From: an uncultured Gammaproteobacteria bacterium
GTDB lineage: Bacteria; Pseudomonadota; Gammaproteobacteria; Steroidobacterales; UBA11654
Reading direction: 5' to 3'
DNA: 64,000 nucleotides
NCBI GenBank assembly: GCA_902553145.1
Contig: CACDKD010000001.1
Coordinates: 277,786 to 341,785, forward strand
Shown: in pieces, positions 18,537-64,000 of the stretch
How the letters are laid out: the number at the start of each line of letters is the position of its first letter
Position numbering within the stretch: position 1 is the stretch's first letter
The notes under the pieces: generated by a model
Seen by the model: the letters and a program-made list of their open reading frames with translations, nothing else
Told to the model about the DNA's origin: nothing
Databases searched by the model: none
Made by a program: the position numbers and the translations under genes

Positions 18537-19370
18537 TTAATTAATTTTTTGGGAAGTTTCTTTTATACATTGAATAAGTTTTAATGATACTTCAGAATTT
18601 GAGGTGGCTATAAACCAATTATTTAAGAAACCTTCCTTTGAGTTGTATTGTAAATCAATATTATTGAGATCTACGATTTGTCCTCCAGCGTGTCTCAAAA
18701 CAGCATCGCCAGCTGCAGTATCCCATTCTGAAGTTGGTCCAAGTCTTGGGTAACAATCAGCCTTCCCAGATGCAATTAAACAAAATTTAAGTGAGCTCCC
18801 AGCTCTTATGACTTTATAATTTTTCAATTTCTTAAGTAGATCCTCAGTTGCCTCATTTTTGTGCGATCTACTGACTAAGATCCTCATGTTTTTAATATTA
18901 TTTGAACATTTAATTCTTTTGGTAATGCCCTTATGGCCAATAAAAAAAGAACCATAACCTTCTGATCCCCAGTAAGTTTCTTTTTTAACTGGGATGTGTA
19001 CAACACCAAATATTGGAATGCCATCCTCAACAAGAGCAATATTGATAGTAAACTCACCATTTTTATTAATAAATTCCTTAGTTCCATCTAAAGGATCTAC
19101 TAACCAAAAATAGCTCCATTTTGATCTAATTTTGAAGGGGATATCAGACTCCTCCTCAGATAAGATTGGTATTTTAGGAGTAATCTCACTGAGTCTCTTC
19201 TTAATAAATTTATGGGATGCAAGATCTGCAGACGTAACTGGGCTAGAATCTAGCTTAGTTTCAATCTCAAAATCTGAGTTATAGATCTCTGTTACTTTAT
19301 TCCCCGCATCAATTGATACTTGAATAACAGAATCAATTAACTTCTTATTAAGGATATTCCTTTTTTGCAT
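18537..19370 (-). CDS. cysQ: 3'(2'),5'-bisphosphate nucleotidase
   Basis: The 277-residue protein has the inositol-monophosphatase fold signatures of CysQ: EEES for metal binding, DPLDGTKEF, and WDTAAGDAVL near the C-terminus. It hydrolyses 3'-phosphoadenosine 5'-phosphate (PAP), the by-product of PAPS-dependent sulfation or sulfate reduction. A sulfotransferase and an APS-kinase-like protein are encoded later in the window, and both are consistent with PAP recycling. It is 52 bases from the SDR gene downstream and 46 from ugd upstream. Confidence 0.85.
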   Translation of the reverse strand: MQKRNILNKKLIDSVIQVSIDAGNKVTEIYNSDFEIETKLDSSPVTSADLASHKFIKKRLSEITPKIPILSEEESDIPFKIRSKWSYFWLVDPLDGTKEFINKNGEFTINIALVEDGIPIFGVVHIPVKKETYWGSEGYGSFFIGHKGITKRIKCSNNIKNMRILVSRSHKNEATEDLLKKLKNYKVIRAGSSLKFCLIASGKADCYPRLGPTSEWDTAAGDAVLRHAGGQIVDLNNIDLQYNSKEGFLNNWFIATSNSEVSLKLIQCIKETSQKIN

Positions 19371-35071: not shown

Positions 35072-35251
35072 ATGGCTTTAAATAAAGAAAAACATATAAA
35101 AATATCATCCAGCGAACTTCCGCTTCATTGTCCGCTTGAAGAATATGATGATTATGATGGTCACCCAAGGGTCTTTCTTGAAATTGTAGGGAAGGAAACT
35201 CCATGCCCGTATTGTGGAACAATTTATGAGTTGACAGATCTTGATGAATGA
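35072..35251 (+). CDS. Small zinc-finger protein (zf-CHCC type)
   Basis: This 59-residue frame encodes a protein with Cys20, His31, Cys43 and Cys46, the last two in CPYCG. The pattern LPLHCP, then GHPRVFLEI, then CPYCGTIY is that of the zf-CHCC domain, found in small bacterial proteins and in the mitochondrial complex I subunit NDUFS6. Its role in bacteria is not settled. It overlaps the start of the next gene by eight bases. Confidence 0.85.
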   Translation: MALNKEKHIKISSSELPLHCPLEEYDDYDGHPRVFLEIVGKETPCPYCGTIYELTDLDE

Positions 35252-36290
35252 GGATGCATCGTTGCTCTGTCATGTCAATTTAGCAAATGGATTTAGGGGT
35301 GGAGAGAGGCAGACCATGCTTCTTATTCAGGCACTTTCAGAAAAGGGCTTTAAACAAAAGTTAATTGCAAGAAAAGATTCTGAGCTAACTAAGCGCTCCC
35401 AATACTTGAGGGGACTTGATGTAATAGAAACAAATTTTTTTGGACTTAATGCTTTTTCTAAAGTGTCGGAAAAAAGCCTTTTTCATTTTCATGATTCACG
35501 CTCATTTTCATCCTTCTATTTGTATGCTTTAAATAAAGAGTCGAATTACATCTACACAAGAAGAGTTCAAAGGTCTCCTAAGGTGAGTTTCATGAGTAAA
35601 AAAATTTATAAAGGAGCAAGATGCATCGTCTGCCTCTCCTCTTCAATTGAGAACTCAGTAAAGAATTCCTTTGGCAATGACACTGAATCAATCATTATTC
35701 CAAGCGCTTCTGCAAATTTTGATTATGATTCGCAAAAATCATCAAAGATTCGACAAGAAATCAAACAAAAATTCATTGTTGGACATATTGGTGAATTGGA
35801 TGACAGTCACAAAGGTCAGTTGGACATCATTGAGCTTGCAAGGAAAGCGAAGAGCAGAGAGCTTGGTATCGGCTTTGTCGTGATTGGCTCTGGAAGAGAT
35901 GATTCAATGCTCAAACAAGAAAGTAATTCTTTAGATAACATTTATTTCACTGGTCAGATCGAAAATATTGGGGATTATCTCGATGCTTTTGATGTCTTTA
36001 TTTTTCCATCTAGGCACGAGGGATTGGGCTCAACGCTTTTGGATGCAATTGAATTTGGATTGCCAATTATTGCGAGAGATGTTGGCGGTATTTCTGACAT
36101 CATAGATGATGGCGTGAATGGTTATTTGGTTAGCGAGCATAACTCTGATTTTTTTACGCCCCTAATTGAACTCTATTCCAGCGAGAGCATTAGAAATAGG
36201 ATATCTGAAGCCAATAGAAAGCAATCAGATGCATTTAGTATAGAAAGAATGACGGAGTCATACATTAGTCTCTATAATCAGTACTTATGA
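35244..36290 (+). CDS. Glycosyltransferase family 4
   Basis: The protein has about 348 residues and the GT-B fold. An N-terminal NGFRGGERQT acceptor loop precedes the Rossmann-like C-terminal half with VGHIGELDDSHKGQ and PSRHEGLGSTLLDAIEFG, which holds the E-x7-E donor motif. ATG at 35244 is chosen over the in-frame TTG at 35241. It is near the LPS core genes, so it may add a core sugar. Its stop overlaps the PLP dehydratase start by four bases. Confidence 0.85.
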   Translation: MNEDASLLCHVNLANGFRGGERQTMLLIQALSEKGFKQKLIARKDSELTKRSQYLRGLDVIETNFFGLNAFSKVSEKSLFHFHDSRSFSSFYLYALNKESNYIYTRRVQRSPKVSFMSKKIYKGARCIVCLSSSIENSVKNSFGNDTESIIIPSASANFDYDSQKSSKIRQEIKQKFIVGHIGELDDSHKGQLDIIELARKAKSRELGIGFVVIGSGRDDSMLKQESNSLDNIYFTGQIENIGDYLDAFDVFIFPSRHEGLGSTLLDAIEFGLPIIARDVGGISDIIDDGVNGYLVSEHNSDFFTPLIELYSSESIRNRISEANRKQSDAFSIERMTESYISLYNQYL

Positions 36291-37249
36291 TCGATCATAA
36301 ATTTTATAAGAAGGTGGAGGCGGCACATCATCGCATACAGGATGATGTCCGATTCACTCCATTGCAATATTCACCCGCTTTGAGCAATCAATCCAATGCC
36401 GAGGTTTATTTGAAATTAGAAAACTTTCAGGTCACAGGCTCATTTAAGGCAAGAGGAGCAACAAACAAAGCAAAAATACTATACGACCAGGGGCATAAAA
36501 AAATCATCACGGCAAGTTCTGGGAATCATGGATCGGCTGTTGCAAACGCAGCAAAAACTCTCGGCATAGATGCATTGATTTTTTTGCCAAACACTGTTTC
36601 AGAAGCAAAGCTGAAAAAGATCCAATCTTTTGGCGCAGAAGTTCAATTGGTGGGCGATGATTCTGGCGATGCTGAAGTTGCAGCTAGAGAATATGCTGAA
36701 AATAACAATCTACCCTATCTTTCTCCTTACAACGATGAAGATGTGATTGCTGGACAAGGCACAATTGGAATTGAGATTTTGCAAGAAAAAGATTCAATGG
36801 ATGCAGTCTTTATTGCTGTGGGAGGCGGTGGCTTGATTTCAGGAATTGGCAGTTATCTTAAAGGAGTTGGCCAAGACTGCGAGATCGTTGCTTGTTCACC
36901 TGAAAATTCCGCAGCGATGCATCACGCACTTCAAACTGGAAAAATTGAGCAGATTGAGCATTCGCAAACATTAAGCGATGGAACAGCCGGAGCACTTGAA
37001 GAGGGCGCAATCACCTTCAATTATTGTCAAACAGTGGTTGATCGATCTATTTTGGTGAATGAGACACAAATCGTACATGCCATGAAAGCTTTCATGGATC
37101 AGCATCAGATGCTCATTGAGGGAGCGGCTGGAGTAGCATTGGCTGCTTTTGAAAGTATTCAAAAAGAGTATGCAAAGAAGAAGGTGACGATACTTCTTTG
37201 TGGGGGAAATATTGCCAATCAGACATTATTAAAGGTTCTACAATCATGA
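36287..37249 (+). CDS. PLP-dependent threonine/serine dehydratase-family protein
   Basis: The 320-residue protein is a fold-type II PLP enzyme. Lys54 in GSFKARGA is the Schiff-base lysine, SSGNHGSAVA is the substrate loop, and VGGGGLISG holds the phosphate. There is no C-terminal regulatory ACT domain, so it is the short catabolic type (TdcB, serine racemase, EutB or hydroxyaspartate dehydratase relatives). The next gene is an ornithine-cyclodeaminase-like protein with overlapping start, a pairing known from hydroxyectoine use (EutB-EutC) and from the beta-hydroxyaspartate cycle (BhcB-BhcD). The other genes of those pathways are absent here. Confidence 0.82.
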   Translation: MIDHKFYKKVEAAHHRIQDDVRFTPLQYSPALSNQSNAEVYLKLENFQVTGSFKARGATNKAKILYDQGHKKIITASSGNHGSAVANAAKTLGIDALIFLPNTVSEAKLKKIQSFGAEVQLVGDDSGDAEVAAREYAENNNLPYLSPYNDEDVIAGQGTIGIEILQEKDSMDAVFIAVGGGGLISGIGSYLKGVGQDCEIVACSPENSAAMHHALQTGKIEQIEHSQTLSDGTAGALEEGAITFNYCQTVVDRSILVNETQIVHAMKAFMDQHQMLIEGAAGVALAAFESIQKEYAKKKVTILLCGGNIANQTLLKVLQS

Positions 37250-38196
37250 TGCCAATCACCCTTAATTGGGAGCAAATCCAACCGCTTACAGAAAAGATGG
37301 ATATGAATGATGCAATGAGAGAGGCATTCATTGAATATTCCAAAGGAAATGCTGTGATCCCACCGGTTGGTGAATTGATCATGCATCGGCCACCGGGAGA
37401 GGTTCATATCAAATATGGATACATCAAGGGCGGCAAACACTATGTGATTAAAATCGCATCTGGATTTCCTCACAATCAAAAAGAAAATATCAAGCCCGGA
37501 CAAGGCATGATGTTGCTATTTGATATTAAAACTGGAGTGCCTGATGCTATATTGATTGATGATGCCAATCTGACAGACATCAGAACTGCAATTGCAGGTG
37601 CAATTTCCAGTCATGCATTATCAAATGATGATCTTGAATCTTTCGCAATAATAGGCACAGGCGTACAAGCACGTTATCAGGCTAAATATATTTCACAGCT
37701 CATGAACATAAAAAAAATAACTGTTTGGGGCAGAGACTCAGTCAAGGCCAATGCAGTAAAAACTGATCTAACAGAGTTGGATGTCAGTATTGAGATGGAT
37801 TTAGAAAAGCTTGTGAAAGAATCAAGATTGATCATAACAACCACCTCATCAAAAGAGCCACTGATCCAATCCGATTGGGTAAAGCCAGGCACACATATCA
37901 CCGCAGTTGGATCGGATACTCCTGAGAAGTGTGAGCTTGATCCAAACACACTTGCTAGAGCCGATCTTGTTGTCGCAGATAGCTTGGAACAGAATCTCAT
38001 TCGTGGTGAAATACATCAGGCTGTTAAGAGATCACTCATCGATACCGAAGGCATTATCGAACTCGGGGAGATTTTTGCAGGATTGAAATCTGGAAGACCG
38101 CATACGGATTCAATTACCATTGCAGACCTCACTGGCGTTGCAATTCAGGATCTCGTGATTGCACAAGCTGTTTTAAAAGCAGCAAAGGAGAAATGA
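37246..38196 (+). CDS. Ornithine cyclodeaminase/mu-crystallin-family protein
   Basis: About 316 residues with the OCD family layout: a substrate domain with HIKYGYIKGGKHYVIK, then the NAD domain with GTGVQARYQAKY, and ITAVGSDTPEKCELD. Members act as ornithine cyclodeaminase, alanine dehydrogenase, imine reductase (BhcD) or EutC. The start is ATG 37246 or 37249, both overlapping the dehydratase stop. It is probably an imine or amino acid dehydrogenase working on the product of the neighbouring dehydratase; this is inference. Confidence 0.82.
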   Translation: MMPITLNWEQIQPLTEKMDMNDAMREAFIEYSKGNAVIPPVGELIMHRPPGEVHIKYGYIKGGKHYVIKIASGFPHNQKENIKPGQGMMLLFDIKTGVPDAILIDDANLTDIRTAIAGAISSHALSNDDLESFAIIGTGVQARYQAKYISQLMNIKKITVWGRDSVKANAVKTDLTELDVSIEMDLEKLVKESRLIITTTSSKEPLIQSDWVKPGTHITAVGSDTPEKCELDPNTLARADLVVADSLEQNLIRGEIHQAVKRSLIDTEGIIELGEIFAGLKSGRPHTDSITIADLTGVAIQDLVIAQAVLKAAKEK

Positions 38197-38619
38197 TTGA
38201 GCACAAAATATAAAATCCTAATTATGGGACTCCCTGGGAGTGGAAAAACGTATCTTGCTGAAAGATTGGTTCCGATATTGAATGCTGCTTGGTACAACGC
38301 AGACAAACTGAGAGAAATGGCAAATGATTGGGATTTTTCTGATGAAGGCAGAAGAAGGCAATCCAGAAGAATGAGGACATTTGCTGATTTTGAAAAAGAC
38401 AATGGGCGATATGTTGTTTGCGATTTTGTTTGTCCCACTAAAGAAACAAGAGAGAATTTTGATGCCGATATTGTTATTTGGATGGATACCATCAAAGAAG
38501 GTCGATTTGAGGATACCAACAAGATTTTTATTTCTCCCGAGCAAATTGATTTTCATGTCAGGGAGTGGAACGATCATAATCACTCAGACATTGCCAAAGA
38601 GATTCTAAAAAATGTTTGA
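38197..38619 (+). CDS. APS kinase-like P-loop kinase
   Basis: The 140-residue protein has Walker A in GLPGSGKT near the N-terminus, then NADKLREMANDWDFSDEGRRRQSRRM, which follows the pattern of adenylylsulfate kinases (LDGD...N.DLGFS...R.EN.RR). It is shorter than CysC, about 200 residues, and lacks the usual C-terminal part. A TTG start at 38197 is preceded by AAGGAG at 38185-38190. The next gene is a small nucleotidyltransferase overlapping by eight bases. It may phosphorylate a nucleotide-linked or small substrate; true APS kinase activity is not assured. Confidence 0.68.
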   Translation: MSTKYKILIMGLPGSGKTYLAERLVPILNAAWYNADKLREMANDWDFSDEGRRRQSRRMRTFADFEKDNGRYVVCDFVCPTKETRENFDADIVIWMDTIKEGRFEDTNKIFISPEQIDFHVREWNDHNHSDIAKEILKNV

Positions 38620-39001
38620 CTCCAAGAAACCCACAGTTCAGATGCTAGGCAGATGGCAGCCTTGGCACAAAGGACATCAGGAATTATTCAAAAGATGTGT
38701 TCAAAAAACAGGTCAAGTCGTTATACAGGTCAGAGATGTTCATCAATCGTCTGGAGGTGAAGGACAAGATGATAATCCATTTGATTGGGACTTGGTTTGC
38801 AAGAATATTGAAGAGGGATTGGCCTCTGATGGTTACCAGCGAGGAGTTGAATACGAGATCATGTTGGTTCCAAATATTGTCAATATCACCTATGGGCGAG
38901 GAGTTGGTTATGTTTTTGAGGAAGAGGCATTCGATGATTCAATCACTGAAATAAGTGCGACTAAGATCAGAGAGAAAATGAGGGATGAAGGAGATCTTTA
39001 A
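38612..39001 (+). CDS. Small HxGH nucleotidyltransferase (cytidylyltransferase-like)
   Basis: The 129-residue protein has GRWQPWHKGHQ with the HxGH motif and ISATKIRE, matching the ISxTxxR motif of nucleotidylyltransferases such as NMNAT, PPAT and CTP:glycerol-3-phosphate cytidylyltransferase. It transfers a nucleotide monophosphate to a phosphorylated substrate. The gene overlaps the APS-kinase-like gene, so the pair may make and activate one product. The nucleotide and substrate are unknown. Confidence 0.78.
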   Translation: MFDSKKPTVQMLGRWQPWHKGHQELFKRCVQKTGQVVIQVRDVHQSSGGEGQDDNPFDWDLVCKNIEEGLASDGYQRGVEYEIMLVPNIVNITYGRGVGYVFEEEAFDDSITEISATKIREKMRDEGDL

Positions 39002-44365: not shown

Positions 44366-44809
44366 GTGTCAGACTTCTTTAAATTTTTAAAATCGGACCC
44401 AAGAGAAATGCAAGAGGATGACGATGTTAATCCTGTTGAGATGGCCGCTGCCGTTCTGCTAATTGAAATGGCAAGAGCAGATTTTGAGCAAGCAGATCTT
44501 GAAAACGCAACAATCATCGAGCTATTGCAGGAGTACTTCGTAATGAATCTTGAGGATGCAAATGAGCTATTTGATGAGGCAGAGGAGATTGCAGATAATT
44601 CTGTATCTTTGCATGAGTTCACTCGCACCCTTCACGAGACACTCAACGATGAAGCTAAAAATGAGATCATTGAAATGCTTTGGCGACTTGCATTGGTCGA
44701 TGACACTCTGGATCGTTACGAAGATTATTTGGTCAGAAAAATAGCTGATTTGCTTTATGTATCAAATTCAAATGTTCTTCGAATCAAACATGAGTTAACC
44801 AGTAATTAA
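44366..44809 (+). CDS. TerB-family protein
   Basis: The 147-residue protein is all-helical with AAAVLLIEMARADFEQADLE near residue 28 and MLWRLALVDDTLDRYEDYLVRKIADLL near the end, the acidic paired-helix pattern of TerB/DjlA-like domains. The start is GTG at 44366. It overlaps the convergent dgcN gene by 15 bases. TerB domains bind metals and sit at the membrane in stress systems; this one is alone, with no other ter genes. Confidence 0.82.
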   Translation: MSDFFKFLKSDPREMQEDDDVNPVEMAAAVLLIEMARADFEQADLENATIIELLQEYFVMNLEDANELFDEAEEIADNSVSLHEFTRTLHETLNDEAKNEIIEMLWRLALVDDTLDRYEDYLVRKIADLLYVSNSNVLRIKHELTSN

Positions 44810-45847
44810 GGTGGACTGTATTTTTTTAACCAGAGGAGTGATGTCCTCAAAAATTGGGTTCAGTACTGGCATGCCAGTCTCTTCTCTTAATTGAGATGTA
44901 TCGAATGACTCACTTGAATTAATTGCAATTCCAATGACTTCTTTTCCGTAATGCTTAATCAATTCAATTTCATCCATTACTGATGGGATAATGGCTTCAG
45001 CCGCTTCACAATTATCAAAATATTTTCTCTCTGCTGGATGTGCCAGAACAACCGCATCTATATTTCCGGAGAGCAAGATTTCTGAACCGCAAGGACCCGA
45101 AGGATTTCGGAGTGAAGATTGGCCCTCAATCAGCATTAAATCTGGCTCTTCTTCTGTTGCGCAATCAATGATTGCTTTTTCGAGTTCACCTGAAACAAAA
45201 TCGTTCAAGGTCGAGTCAAGAATCAAACCGTGTTTAAATCCCTGAAGATAACCTGTTTGCCCCGTATATATTACTTCTGTTTTTACATCAGCATTTCTTA
45301 AAGCTTCAACCAAAAACTGACACATTGTCCTTTTTCCTGTCGCACAATCTGTTCCTAGGACTGCAATCTTGGGAATCTTTATTTTTTTAATATCGCCGTT
45401 CCAGAACCTCAATTGTTCTGCTTTCTTTGGTTTCCTGATGTCGTGAATCTTTGCACCATTTTTTTGAGCAATTTCTATAAACTCAGGATCCTCTGATAGG
45501 AGTTGATGCAGACCGCAAACGACATCCATTCCTTGGCTGAGTGAATCTTTGACAATTGATCTGTGTTCGTTGGGAAGCATGCCTCCTCCAAATGCAACTC
45601 CCATTACAAGAAATTTCGGTTTTTCTGGTAATTCTTCTAGTGCAGAAGATAAATCTTTGTATATTTTCAAATTCTCTTTGCAATGCCTGACAAAATCTTC
45701 ACTCATTGAGCCGTGAAACCTTGGATCTATAAGACCCAAAATCTGAAAGCGATCTGAGTATCTCAGTAACCCATGTGCTGTTTTGGCATGAATATCATCA
45801 AGCAGACCCCCGCTGTAAAGCAATGCTGTGCCATAAATATCTTTCAT
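44795..45847 (-). CDS. dgcN: D-glutamate N-acetyltransferase DgcN (DUF1611)
   Basis: The 350-residue protein has a DUF1611 architecture: an N-terminal Rossmann-like half (GTALLYSGGLLDD, GVAFGGGMLP) and a C-terminal P-loop-like half with LGTDCATGKRT and QTGYLQGFKHGLILD. DgcN proteins acetylate D-glutamate before racemisation by DgcA. Its start overlaps the dgcA stop by four bases, so the pair is coupled. Assignment rests on the fold and this pairing. Confidence 0.82.
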   Translation of the reverse strand: MKDIYGTALLYSGGLLDDIHAKTAHGLLRYSDRFQILGLIDPRFHGSMSEDFVRHCKENLKIYKDLSSALEELPEKPKFLVMGVAFGGGMLPNEHRSIVKDSLSQGMDVVCGLHQLLSEDPEFIEIAQKNGAKIHDIRKPKKAEQLRFWNGDIKKIKIPKIAVLGTDCATGKRTMCQFLVEALRNADVKTEVIYTGQTGYLQGFKHGLILDSTLNDFVSGELEKAIIDCATEEEPDLMLIEGQSSLRNPSGPCGSEILLSGNIDAVVLAHPAERKYFDNCEAAEAIIPSVMDEIELIKHYGKEVIGIAINSSESFDTSQLREETGMPVLNPIFEDITPLVKKIQSTLITG

Positions 45848-46905
45848 GAAAAAACTCCTAGACCCGGTCTTTCAATTGCACTCATGATTCCATTCTCGCA
45901 TCTATACCCTCCCTCTATTAGGTCCCATCCTAAATCGAAAAAGCCATCTAAATCAATGTATTGAGTATTCTCACATGAGAGCGCAGTATGGAGTGCTGCC
46001 GAGATACTGATTTTGCTCTCATCAAAACATCCCCACATGAGTTCTATGCCATTCTCTTCAGCCAGTGATGCGATCTTCTTTGCAGCAAAAACTCCACCGC
46101 ATTTCATGAGCTTGATGTTAAATACTCCAAAGGGTTTTGGTTCCTTCAAGAGGCGTACTGCATCATCGAAGTTTTGAAGACTTTCATCCGCAACACAAAT
46201 CTTTCTAATCTCTTCAGGGAAATAGAGCATCTCATTATTTTGGTCTACCTCCATGGGCTGCTCTATTAGCTCGAGACCAAGATGAAGCGTCTTCTCGTAA
46301 AATTTAATCAGATCTTCTTTTGAGTAACCCCTATTGGCGTCAACCCGAATTTTTATTTTTTCAGGCTTCAATTCAAACAATGCTTTCATTCGCTCAATGT
46401 CTTCTTCAACACAGTCGCCAATTTTAATTTTTAAAATCGAGAATCCGTTGTCTATATGTTTCTTTGCCATCTCAATGGTTTTCTCCAAAGACGCAACACC
46501 AATTGTAATGGAAGTATCAAAAGATTGATGTTTTTTGCCCATAGCATCAACGAGTGTTTTCCCCTCTCTCTTTGCCCATAAATCATGTATTGCAATATCA
46601 ACGGCAGCATTTGCCTCTGTGTTCAAAGGCAATTCTGATGCAATCCAACCGAAAGTATTTTCAGTTAGTCCAAGTTCTTTTCCAACCAAAGACGATGAGA
46701 ACGATTCTAGAATATCGAAACACTCCTTAACAGATTCCTCGGAATCATTTTGTGTGGCACATGATCCAATCCCTATATTACCCTCTGAATCTTCTAAGGT
46801 GATGAACGTATTTTTAATTGAATCGTGAACATGCCCTGCAATCGCCCAAGGCTCTTTCAATTGCATGTCATGTGTTACAACTTTTGCATTCTTTATAATC
46901 ATCAA
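45844..46905 (-). CDS. dgcA: N-acetyl-D-glutamate racemase DgcA (enolase superfamily)
   Basis: The 353-residue protein is an enolase-superfamily enzyme with the dipeptide-epimerase-like sites: Lys-x-Lys in LKIKIGD, Asp in RVDANRGYS, Glu in LELIEQP, Asp in CVADESL, and a final Lys in NIKLMKCGG. The two lysines on opposite faces support 1,1-proton transfer (epimerisation). Next to dgcN it is best read as DgcA, making N-acetyl-L-glutamate; a general L-Ala-D/L-Glu epimerase is the alternative. Confidence 0.82.
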   Translation of the reverse strand: MMIIKNAKVVTHDMQLKEPWAIAGHVHDSIKNTFITLEDSEGNIGIGSCATQNDSEESVKECFDILESFSSSLVGKELGLTENTFGWIASELPLNTEANAAVDIAIHDLWAKREGKTLVDAMGKKHQSFDTSITIGVASLEKTIEMAKKHIDNGFSILKIKIGDCVEEDIERMKALFELKPEKIKIRVDANRGYSKEDLIKFYEKTLHLGLELIEQPMEVDQNNEMLYFPEEIRKICVADESLQNFDDAVRLLKEPKPFGVFNIKLMKCGGVFAAKKIASLAEENGIELMWGCFDESKISISAALHTALSCENTQYIDLDGFFDLGWDLIEGGYRCENGIMSAIERPGLGVFS

Positions 46906-63498: not shown

Positions 63499-64000
63499 AT
63501 GTTCTTTCCAAATAAAAAACTATTTATTCATATTCCGAAAACCGGAGGAACGAGCCTCGAGTTTGCTATCGCAAGCAAATTTTTCTACGAAAAGATTGAT
63601 CAGGAAGAAACAGTCAGTAGTTACAGAGACTTCATTGATCAAAATGGATTTCAGAGCTTAGACAGAAAAAAAATTGAAGAGATGTCATATCAAAAATTTA
63701 CAATCAATGGACATTTTAGAAAATTAAAGAAAGGACAGGGAGGTCATCCGCATAGTTTTATAAATGATTATGCAGAATTCTTGGATATTGATGAGTATGA
63801 AAAATTTGTTGTGCTTAGAAATCCATACGATCAAGTAGTGAGCCTTTACAACCAAATCAGAAAGCAAGTCAAGATCAATTCACTCGATGATTTCATACTG
63901 TGTAAGGATAAGCACAACATTGATAAGTATCGACACTACATTGACCAATATGCATTTACACATATCGATGGATCTTTATCGGCGGACAAAGTTTTTGTTT
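63499..64000 (+). CDS. Sulfotransferase-family protein, N-terminal part
   Basis: The frame starts at ATG 63499 and is open at the right edge, so 167 residues are visible. HIPKTGGTS (residues 11-19) is the PAPS 5'-phosphosulfate-binding loop, and VVLRNPYDQVVSLYNQ is the 3'-phosphate-binding block, both typical of carbohydrate sulfotransferases. It may transfer sulfate to a surface glycan. CysQ (PAP removal) and an APS-kinase-like gene occur earlier in the window. Confidence 0.85.
   Translation, partial: MFFPNKKLFIHIPKTGGTSLEFAIASKFFYEKIDQEETVSSYRDFIDQNGFQSLDRKKIEEMSYQKFTINGHFRKLKKGQGGHPHSFINDYAEFLDIDEYEKFVVLRNPYDQVVSLYNQIRKQVKINSLDDFILCKDKHNIDKYRHYIDQYAFTHIDGSLSADKVFV

Follow-up and report, generated by a model that had tools for sequence, protein, structure and literature searches.

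A compact kinase–nucleotidyltransferase gene pair predicted to make PAPS in marine bacteria and phages

Four overlapping or touching open reading frames (ORFs) are found in a 64,000-nucleotide (nt) stretch of DNA (hereafter the window) from an uncultured gammaproteobacterium of the Steroidobacterales (UBA11654; assembly GCA_902553145.1, contig CACDKD010000001.1, positions 277,786 to 341,785). They encode a threonine/serine dehydratase, an ornithine cyclodeaminase (OCD)/mu-crystallin family protein, a 140-residue P-loop kinase (KIN) and a 129-residue HxGH nucleotidyltransferase (NT). A first-pass annotation, in which the four ORFs were all correctly placed, took them for a joint operon, and the locus raises the question of whether the four genes serve one pathway and what the two small enzymes at its end might make. 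We consider it probable that KIN and NT form a minimal module for the synthesis of 3'-phosphoadenosine 5'-phosphosulfate (PAPS), in which NT makes adenosine 5'-phosphosulfate (APS) and KIN converts it to PAPS. Computed support is provided by the pairing of the two genes, the fold and residues of KIN, the absence of the textbook enzymes, the neighbouring genes and the exchange of KIN for canonical CysC. No earlier description of the KIN-NT module, or of a replacement for a missing ATP sulfurylase, was found in the open-access literature.

KIN and NT as a gene pair in cells and viruses

The complete block, in which a family 4 glycosyltransferase (GT4) gene precedes the dehydratase, OCD, KIN and NT genes, is intact in four of the eight congeneric genomes that carry KIN (the window's genome, G005, G008 and G002). 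G004, G006 and G009 have the KIN-NT pair between polA and engB, whereas G007 has it at a third location; in none of these are dehydratase or OCD genes found nearby. Named genomes were scanned with an NT profile, which yielded 372 confirmed loci, and the best 80 of these were kept. Dehydratase and OCD genes precede KIN-NT in only three of these 80 loci, all within the window's genus, and GT4 genes upstream of KIN-NT were found only together with the dehydratase/OCD block. The four-gene order, for which the first-pass annotation had proposed a search across genomes, is limited to the window and its closest relatives. KIN adjoins NT in 71 of the 80 cellular loci. The two reading frames overlap by 8 nt in the window, and the same overlap is kept in 66/72 cellular and 31/64 viral loci in which both frames were found; because it is kept across cells and viruses, the overlap is not due to chance. 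The last two genes form a unit, the four genes do not, and the dehydratase/OCD pair ahead of KIN-NT is an accidental neighbour. A single pathway, in which dehydratase, reductase, kinase and nucleotidyltransferase would together build an activated surface precursor, is very improbable. The genes overlap or touch in the window and in three congeneric genomes, where they may be co-transcribed, but KIN-NT occurs without the others in 77 of the 80 named loci and, among the seven further congeneric KIN carriers, in four.

Cellular NT loci occur in SAR86, SAR116, Neomarinimicrobiota (Marinimicrobia) and marine Bacteroidota, among others. Viral loci were drawn from IMG/VR, in which at least 592 candidate stretches contain NT. 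Eighty were fetched, and KIN is present in at least 67 of them, a minimum count, as in some loci antisense ORFs were kept in the ORF selection in place of KIN. The viral setting is T4-like and includes uvsX, uvsW and a gp41-like helicase gene (gene names assigned by inspection). A single fusion protein comprises both KIN and NT in phages of Stenotrophomonas and Xanthomonas and in Microvirga. The phage fusion is PHROG phrog_10255, which is annotated no further than "kinase".

The NT tree separates the sampled viral sequences from the cellular ones and places those of Bacteroidota and Marinimicrobia among Gammaproteobacteria. Built from few columns and with many open forks, the tree suggests transfer between phyla and indicates no recent phage donor. 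NT of the window is 82-84% identical to NT of loci L130, L132, L134 and L137, an identity spanning Gammaproteobacteria, Alphaproteobacteria, Bacteroidota and Marinimicrobia, which suggests either inter-phylum transfer or binning errors in metagenome-assembled genomes (MAGs). One IMG/VR contig (L097 5151-5576) carries a second, diverged NT paralogue (GRFQPWNAGH, GRQVGY) immediately 5' of KIN-NT.

Predicted activities of the two proteins

KIN scores 31.9 bits against the Pfam family APS_kinase (PF01583; gathering cut-off 21.1). Its AlphaFold (AF2) model has a predicted local distance difference test (pLDDT) score of 93, and the most similar folds in the PDB are dominated by APS kinases. The nearest solved structure, APE1195 of Aeropyrum pernix (2yvu), was retrieved with a template-modelling (TM) score TMq of 0.86 and was matched at 6e-12 in a profile search. 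In M. tuberculosis CysC, APS is held via Asp480, Arg483, Phe492 and Arg497, and its phosphosulfate is bound by the two arginines (PMC4373884). The KIN residues at these positions (D36, R39, F47 and R52), as well as K17 at the position of the P-loop Lys456 (PMC4373884), are invariant across the KIN family and common to canonical CysC in the alignment. KIN does not have the full-length CysC lid carrying Lys562 and Phe576: the lid is shortened in the alignment, where KGLYKKAR...FTGID of CysC is set against a short RFEDTNKIF segment. The NCBIfam apsK equivalog score is also well under its cut-off (27.2 vs 138.7 bits). Because of the shortened lid and this score, KIN is best described as a divergent relative and not as an orthodox CysC, to which it is alike in fold, P-loop, Asp/Arg/Phe/Arg contacts with APS and neighbouring genes. 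Fold and residues support the prediction that KIN is an APS kinase.

NT carries the motifs GRWQPWHxGH, YGRG/DVGY and ISATKIR. The HxGH signature is present, and YGRG/DVGY and ISATxIR resemble, at best distantly, the GRDHAG loop and the ISGTxxR motif of the ATP sulfurylase Sat. NT likely works like an ATP sulfurylase; it is not a member of the Sat family. Sat (PF01747) and NT are alike in the reaction proposed for NT, the HxxH superfamily and the position ahead of aprMBA (PMC3779200) and, at best distantly, in a GRD-like loop and an IS(A/G)TxxR motif at the C-terminus. Sat is about 390 residues long and features QxRNP and extra domains, whereas NT, with 129 residues, has neither and shows no profile similarity. 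Direct homology between the two was considered and rejected, as none emerged from hhalign or from the PDB profile search. CysD/CysN catalyse the reaction proposed for NT and likewise have DUF2061 next door, but CysD belongs to the PP-loop enzymes (PF01507) and is partnered by a GTPase, whereas NT is an HxGH enzyme with which no such partner was seen. Animal PAPS synthases and bacterial Sat-CysC fusions combine kinase and sulfurylase in one chain, as the phage KIN-NT fusions may do, and the animal enzymes have the same kinase-first order as the phage fusions. They measure about 570-630 residues, in contrast to about 245 for the phage protein, the putative sulfurylase part of which is unrelated. 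The archaeal nicotinamide mononucleotide (NMN) adenylyltransferase MJ0541 (1f9a) has motif 1, GR(F/W)QP(F/W)HxGH, in common with NT. The likeness is mostly limited to this motif, and NT lacks the gene context of nicotinamide adenine dinucleotide (NAD) synthesis.

In the proposed mechanism, NT would convert sulfate and ATP to APS and pyrophosphate in place of ATP sulfurylase, and KIN, with its shortened lid, would phosphorylate the 3'-OH of APS to yield PAPS. PAPS would feed sulfotransferases, the targets of which are probably surface glycans, and CysQ would remove the 3'-phosphoadenosine 5'-phosphate (PAP) left by PAPS-dependent sulfotransferases. When serving KIN or CysC, NT would run in the forward direction; with AprBA in SAR116 it may run in reverse. 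NT is proposed to make APS because KIN, CysC, AprBA and PAPS-dependent sulfation have just one small molecule in common, APS. We infer this reaction from gene context, while the sulfotransferases and the glycan genes of the window point to a sulfated product destined for the cell surface. The order in the "phosphorylate then nucleotidylate" module of the first-pass annotation is most likely reversed: NT would act first, to give APS, and KIN second, to give PAPS.

Sulfate-activation genes in genomes carrying NT

The window's genome (85% complete) contains no Sat, no CysD/CysH (no PF01507 match) and no other APS kinase; the usual partners of PAPS synthesis, the presence of which elsewhere would by the first-pass annotation have spoken against its reading, are missing from it. 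Three Sulfotransfer_3 domains are encoded outside the window, and such domains are also present in 49 of 50 sampled NT genomes. Sat or a clear CysD/CysH occurs in 3/57 NT genomes vs 19/22 NT-negative relatives (Fisher p = 2e-12), and canonical CysC occurs in 1/49 KIN-NT genomes, a set from which one genome with a partial KIN was left out, vs 7/7 genomes with solo NT (p = 3e-8); as the genomes are mostly incomplete MAGs or single-amplified genomes and are phylogenetically non-independent, both p-values overstate the difference. The pattern of NT present and Sat and CysD missing recurs in several phyla. In the sister genus (G010), a 573-residue Sat-CysC fusion is found in place of KIN-NT. The CysC proteins of the seven NT genomes without KIN are stand-alone and 200-235 residues long; six of these genomes lack Sat and a convincing CysD/CysH, and those of the seven that belong to Bacteroidota have cysQ next after cysC wherever the contig continues.

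Neighbouring genes also point to APS and PAPS. A Sulfotransfer_3 (PF13469) gene lies immediately 5' of KIN in 14 loci, mostly at a distance of 13-34 nt; three of the 14 proteins were scanned and scored 129-147 bits against PF13469. On a Rhodoferax plasmid, a sulfotransferase gene is overlapped by a KIN homologue. DUF2061 (PF09834), a membrane protein of 70 residues, precedes NT in 17 viral loci, in the order KIN-DUF2061-NT where both frames were found, and likewise precedes NT in SAR86-type genomes (L153, L167). In the nod region of Mesorhizobium huakuii (L109 7008-11248), the gene order is sulfotransferase-DUF2061-cysD-cysN, and a plasmid of Microvirga lotononidis (L018 9995-13764) carries a KIN-NT fusion followed by cysD and by a cysN-DUF2061 fusion without a kinase domain. 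DUF2061 may be a partner in sulfate activation, for instance a transporter. DUF2061-like frames, at least partly interrupted by stops, were also seen between KIN and NT at L157 1460-1670 and L188 7780-8010.

In two SAR116 genomes (L137 8001-11601 and L134 8001-11601), a gap of 109 nt separates NT from a QmoC-like gene that follows on the same strand and takes the place of aprM. Next come aprB, which scores 190 bits against a cut-off of 135.65, and aprA (951 bits, cut-off 641.75), and a canonical cysC lies about 1.2 kb past aprA, again on the same strand. In Allochromatium, the gene immediately 5' of aprMBA, within the same operon, is sat (PMC3779200). Neither Sat nor CysD is encoded in one of the two SAR116 genomes. 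NT, ahead of aprM-aprB-aprA, could provide the missing step in sulfite oxidation by AprBA. The first-pass suggestion of a minimal PAPS route for sulfotransferases gains support from the sulfotransferase, CysC and apr contexts and from the missing Sat and CysD.

Several observations, to which the incompleteness and non-independence of the genomes must be added, weigh against an ATP sulfurylase role of NT. NT has no PF01747 match, hhalign gives a probability of 2.7% for its relation to Sat, and its motif 1 reads GRWQP vs QTRNP (QxRNP) in Sat. The best matches by sequence and structure are archaeal NMN adenylyltransferases (NMNATs), HldC and CoaD-like enzymes. The comparison of predicted structures, which the first-pass annotation had recommended, placed KIN nearest to APS kinases and the NT model (pLDDT 83) nearest to HldC, CoaD, NMNAT and TagD; the function of NT is not nameable from structure, because TM scores of 0.4-0.48 are too low. 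In Microvirga, NT is found beside CysDN and its motifs are decayed (GLDLGY, SPTAVQ), as is expected if CysDN made NT redundant. Only two SAR116 genomes, nearly identical to each other, provide the aprMBA evidence, and one of them also has a Sat. Among 40 viral contigs, mostly fragments, just one contains a Sulfotransfer_3 gene, so the phage context alone is no proof of PAPS use. Finally, the congeneric genomes G001 and G003 (82-84% complete) encode sulfotransferase domains, yet NT and Sat/CysD are absent from both.

Two other functions were weighed against PAPS synthesis. KIN could be a ribosylnicotinamide kinase and NT a small NMNAT, the two forming a split mini-NadR for NAD salvage in cells and phages. 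NadR does unite an HxGH domain and a P-loop kinase, and the best named matches of NT, archaeal NMNAT/NadM and NadR-type enzymes, are reached via the GRFQPFHxGH motif. However, these matches involve mostly motif 1 and are far under the curated cut-offs (28.1 vs 127 and 26.9 vs 181 bits for the NMNAT/NadR families), and KIN resembles APS kinase, with the phosphosulfate arginines kept, and not the NadR kinase. The neighbours of NT are aprMBA, cysC, sulfotransferase and DUF2061 genes rather than NAD genes, and a role in NAD salvage, which we regard as quite unlikely, does not explain why canonical CysC stands in for KIN in solo-NT genomes.

Activation by NT of a phosphorylated metabolite or of a small anion other than sulfate, such as a sulfonate, phosphonate or phosphoramidate, to give a nucleotidyl-X compound, followed by addition of a 3'-phosphate by KIN, would be consistent with NT being no Sat by sequence and with the scarcity of sulfotransferases near phage copies. 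Cj1415 is believed to act so in the Campylobacter phosphoramidate pathway, and kinases resembling APS kinase are known that act on other nucleotidyl compounds. This function is unlikely, since solo NT accompanies canonical CysC (7/7) and AprBA, both of which use APS, sulfotransferase genes lie immediately 5' of KIN, CysQ is present, and NT genomes are otherwise without any source of APS.

To our knowledge, Sat and CysDN are the two generally recognised kinds of enzyme that activate sulfate. We lean towards NT being a third kind of ATP sulfurylase, unrelated in sequence to Sat and CysD, which is found in SAR86, SAR116, Marinimicrobia, marine Bacteroidota and T4-like marine phages, serves both PAPS-dependent sulfation and sulfite oxidation by AprBA, and may explain other AprBA bacteria reported to be without ATP sulfurylase, such as most SAR11. 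If so, a sulfate-activating enzyme of 129 residues would alter how genomes are interpreted with regard to sulfur metabolism. SAR86, SAR116 and their relatives, now scored as incapable of sulfate activation, could sulfate their own surfaces, and AprBA bacteria without Sat would gain a route from APS to sulfate and ATP. Pelagibacter is reported to possess AprBA while lacking sat and cysDNC (PMC5069961), and most SAR11 lack ATP sulfurylase though AprBA is present (PMC10356861, PMC5069961); NT is a candidate for the missing enzyme in SAR11. The broad presence of the pair among marine phages suggests that infecting viruses either provide active sulfate or steal it.

Organization of the window

The features discussed are listed in Table 1. 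The ATG of the dehydratase gene overlaps the GT4 stop by 4 nt, the dehydratase and OCD genes overlap by 1 nt at a TGATG junction, and KIN starts with a TTG codon immediately 3' of the OCD stop.

Table 1 Features of the window relevant to the KIN-NT pair
Feature	Position	Strand	Remarks
GT4 glycosyltransferase	35241..36290	+	Directly 5' of dehydratase; neighbour only
PRK06815-type threonine/serine dehydratase	36287..37249	+	PF00291 PALP; neighbour, outside module
OCD/mu-crystallin family protein	37249..38196	+	PF02423; PRK06823-like, under cut-off; neighbour, outside module
KIN, 140-residue P-loop kinase, predicted APS kinase (APS + ATP -> PAPS)	38197..38619	+	PF01583
NT, 129-residue HxGH nucleotidyltransferase, predicted minimal ATP sulfurylase	38612..39001	+	CTP_transf_like-type HxGH, under cut-off
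CysQ, 3'(2'),5'-bisphosphate nucleotidase	18537..19370	-	TIGR01331 304 bits, cut-off 228.8
Sulfotransfer_2-like protein, truncated by window end; possible PAPS user	63499..63999	+	PF03567 20.2 bits, cut-off 22

The dehydratase passes the NCBIfam PRK06815 cut-off (409.8 vs 371 bits) and is classified as a threonine/serine dehydratase. The first-pass annotation had regarded the dehydratase/OCD pair as relatives of EutB-EutC or BhcB-BhcD. Either identity is rejected, as all four scores are under the curated cut-offs: the dehydratase reaches 280.7 vs 413 bits for EutB and 220.9 vs 550 for BhcB, and the OCD-like protein 245.9 vs 471.7 for EutC and 188.9 vs 500 for BhcD. Despite its PF02423 membership, the OCD-like protein is under the cut-off of every curated equivalog. 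Elsewhere in the window (44795-46905), adjoining DgcN-like (DUF1611) and DgcA-like (enolase-superfamily epimerase) genes, both under the curated equivalog cut-offs, are possibly involved in D-glutamate catabolism.

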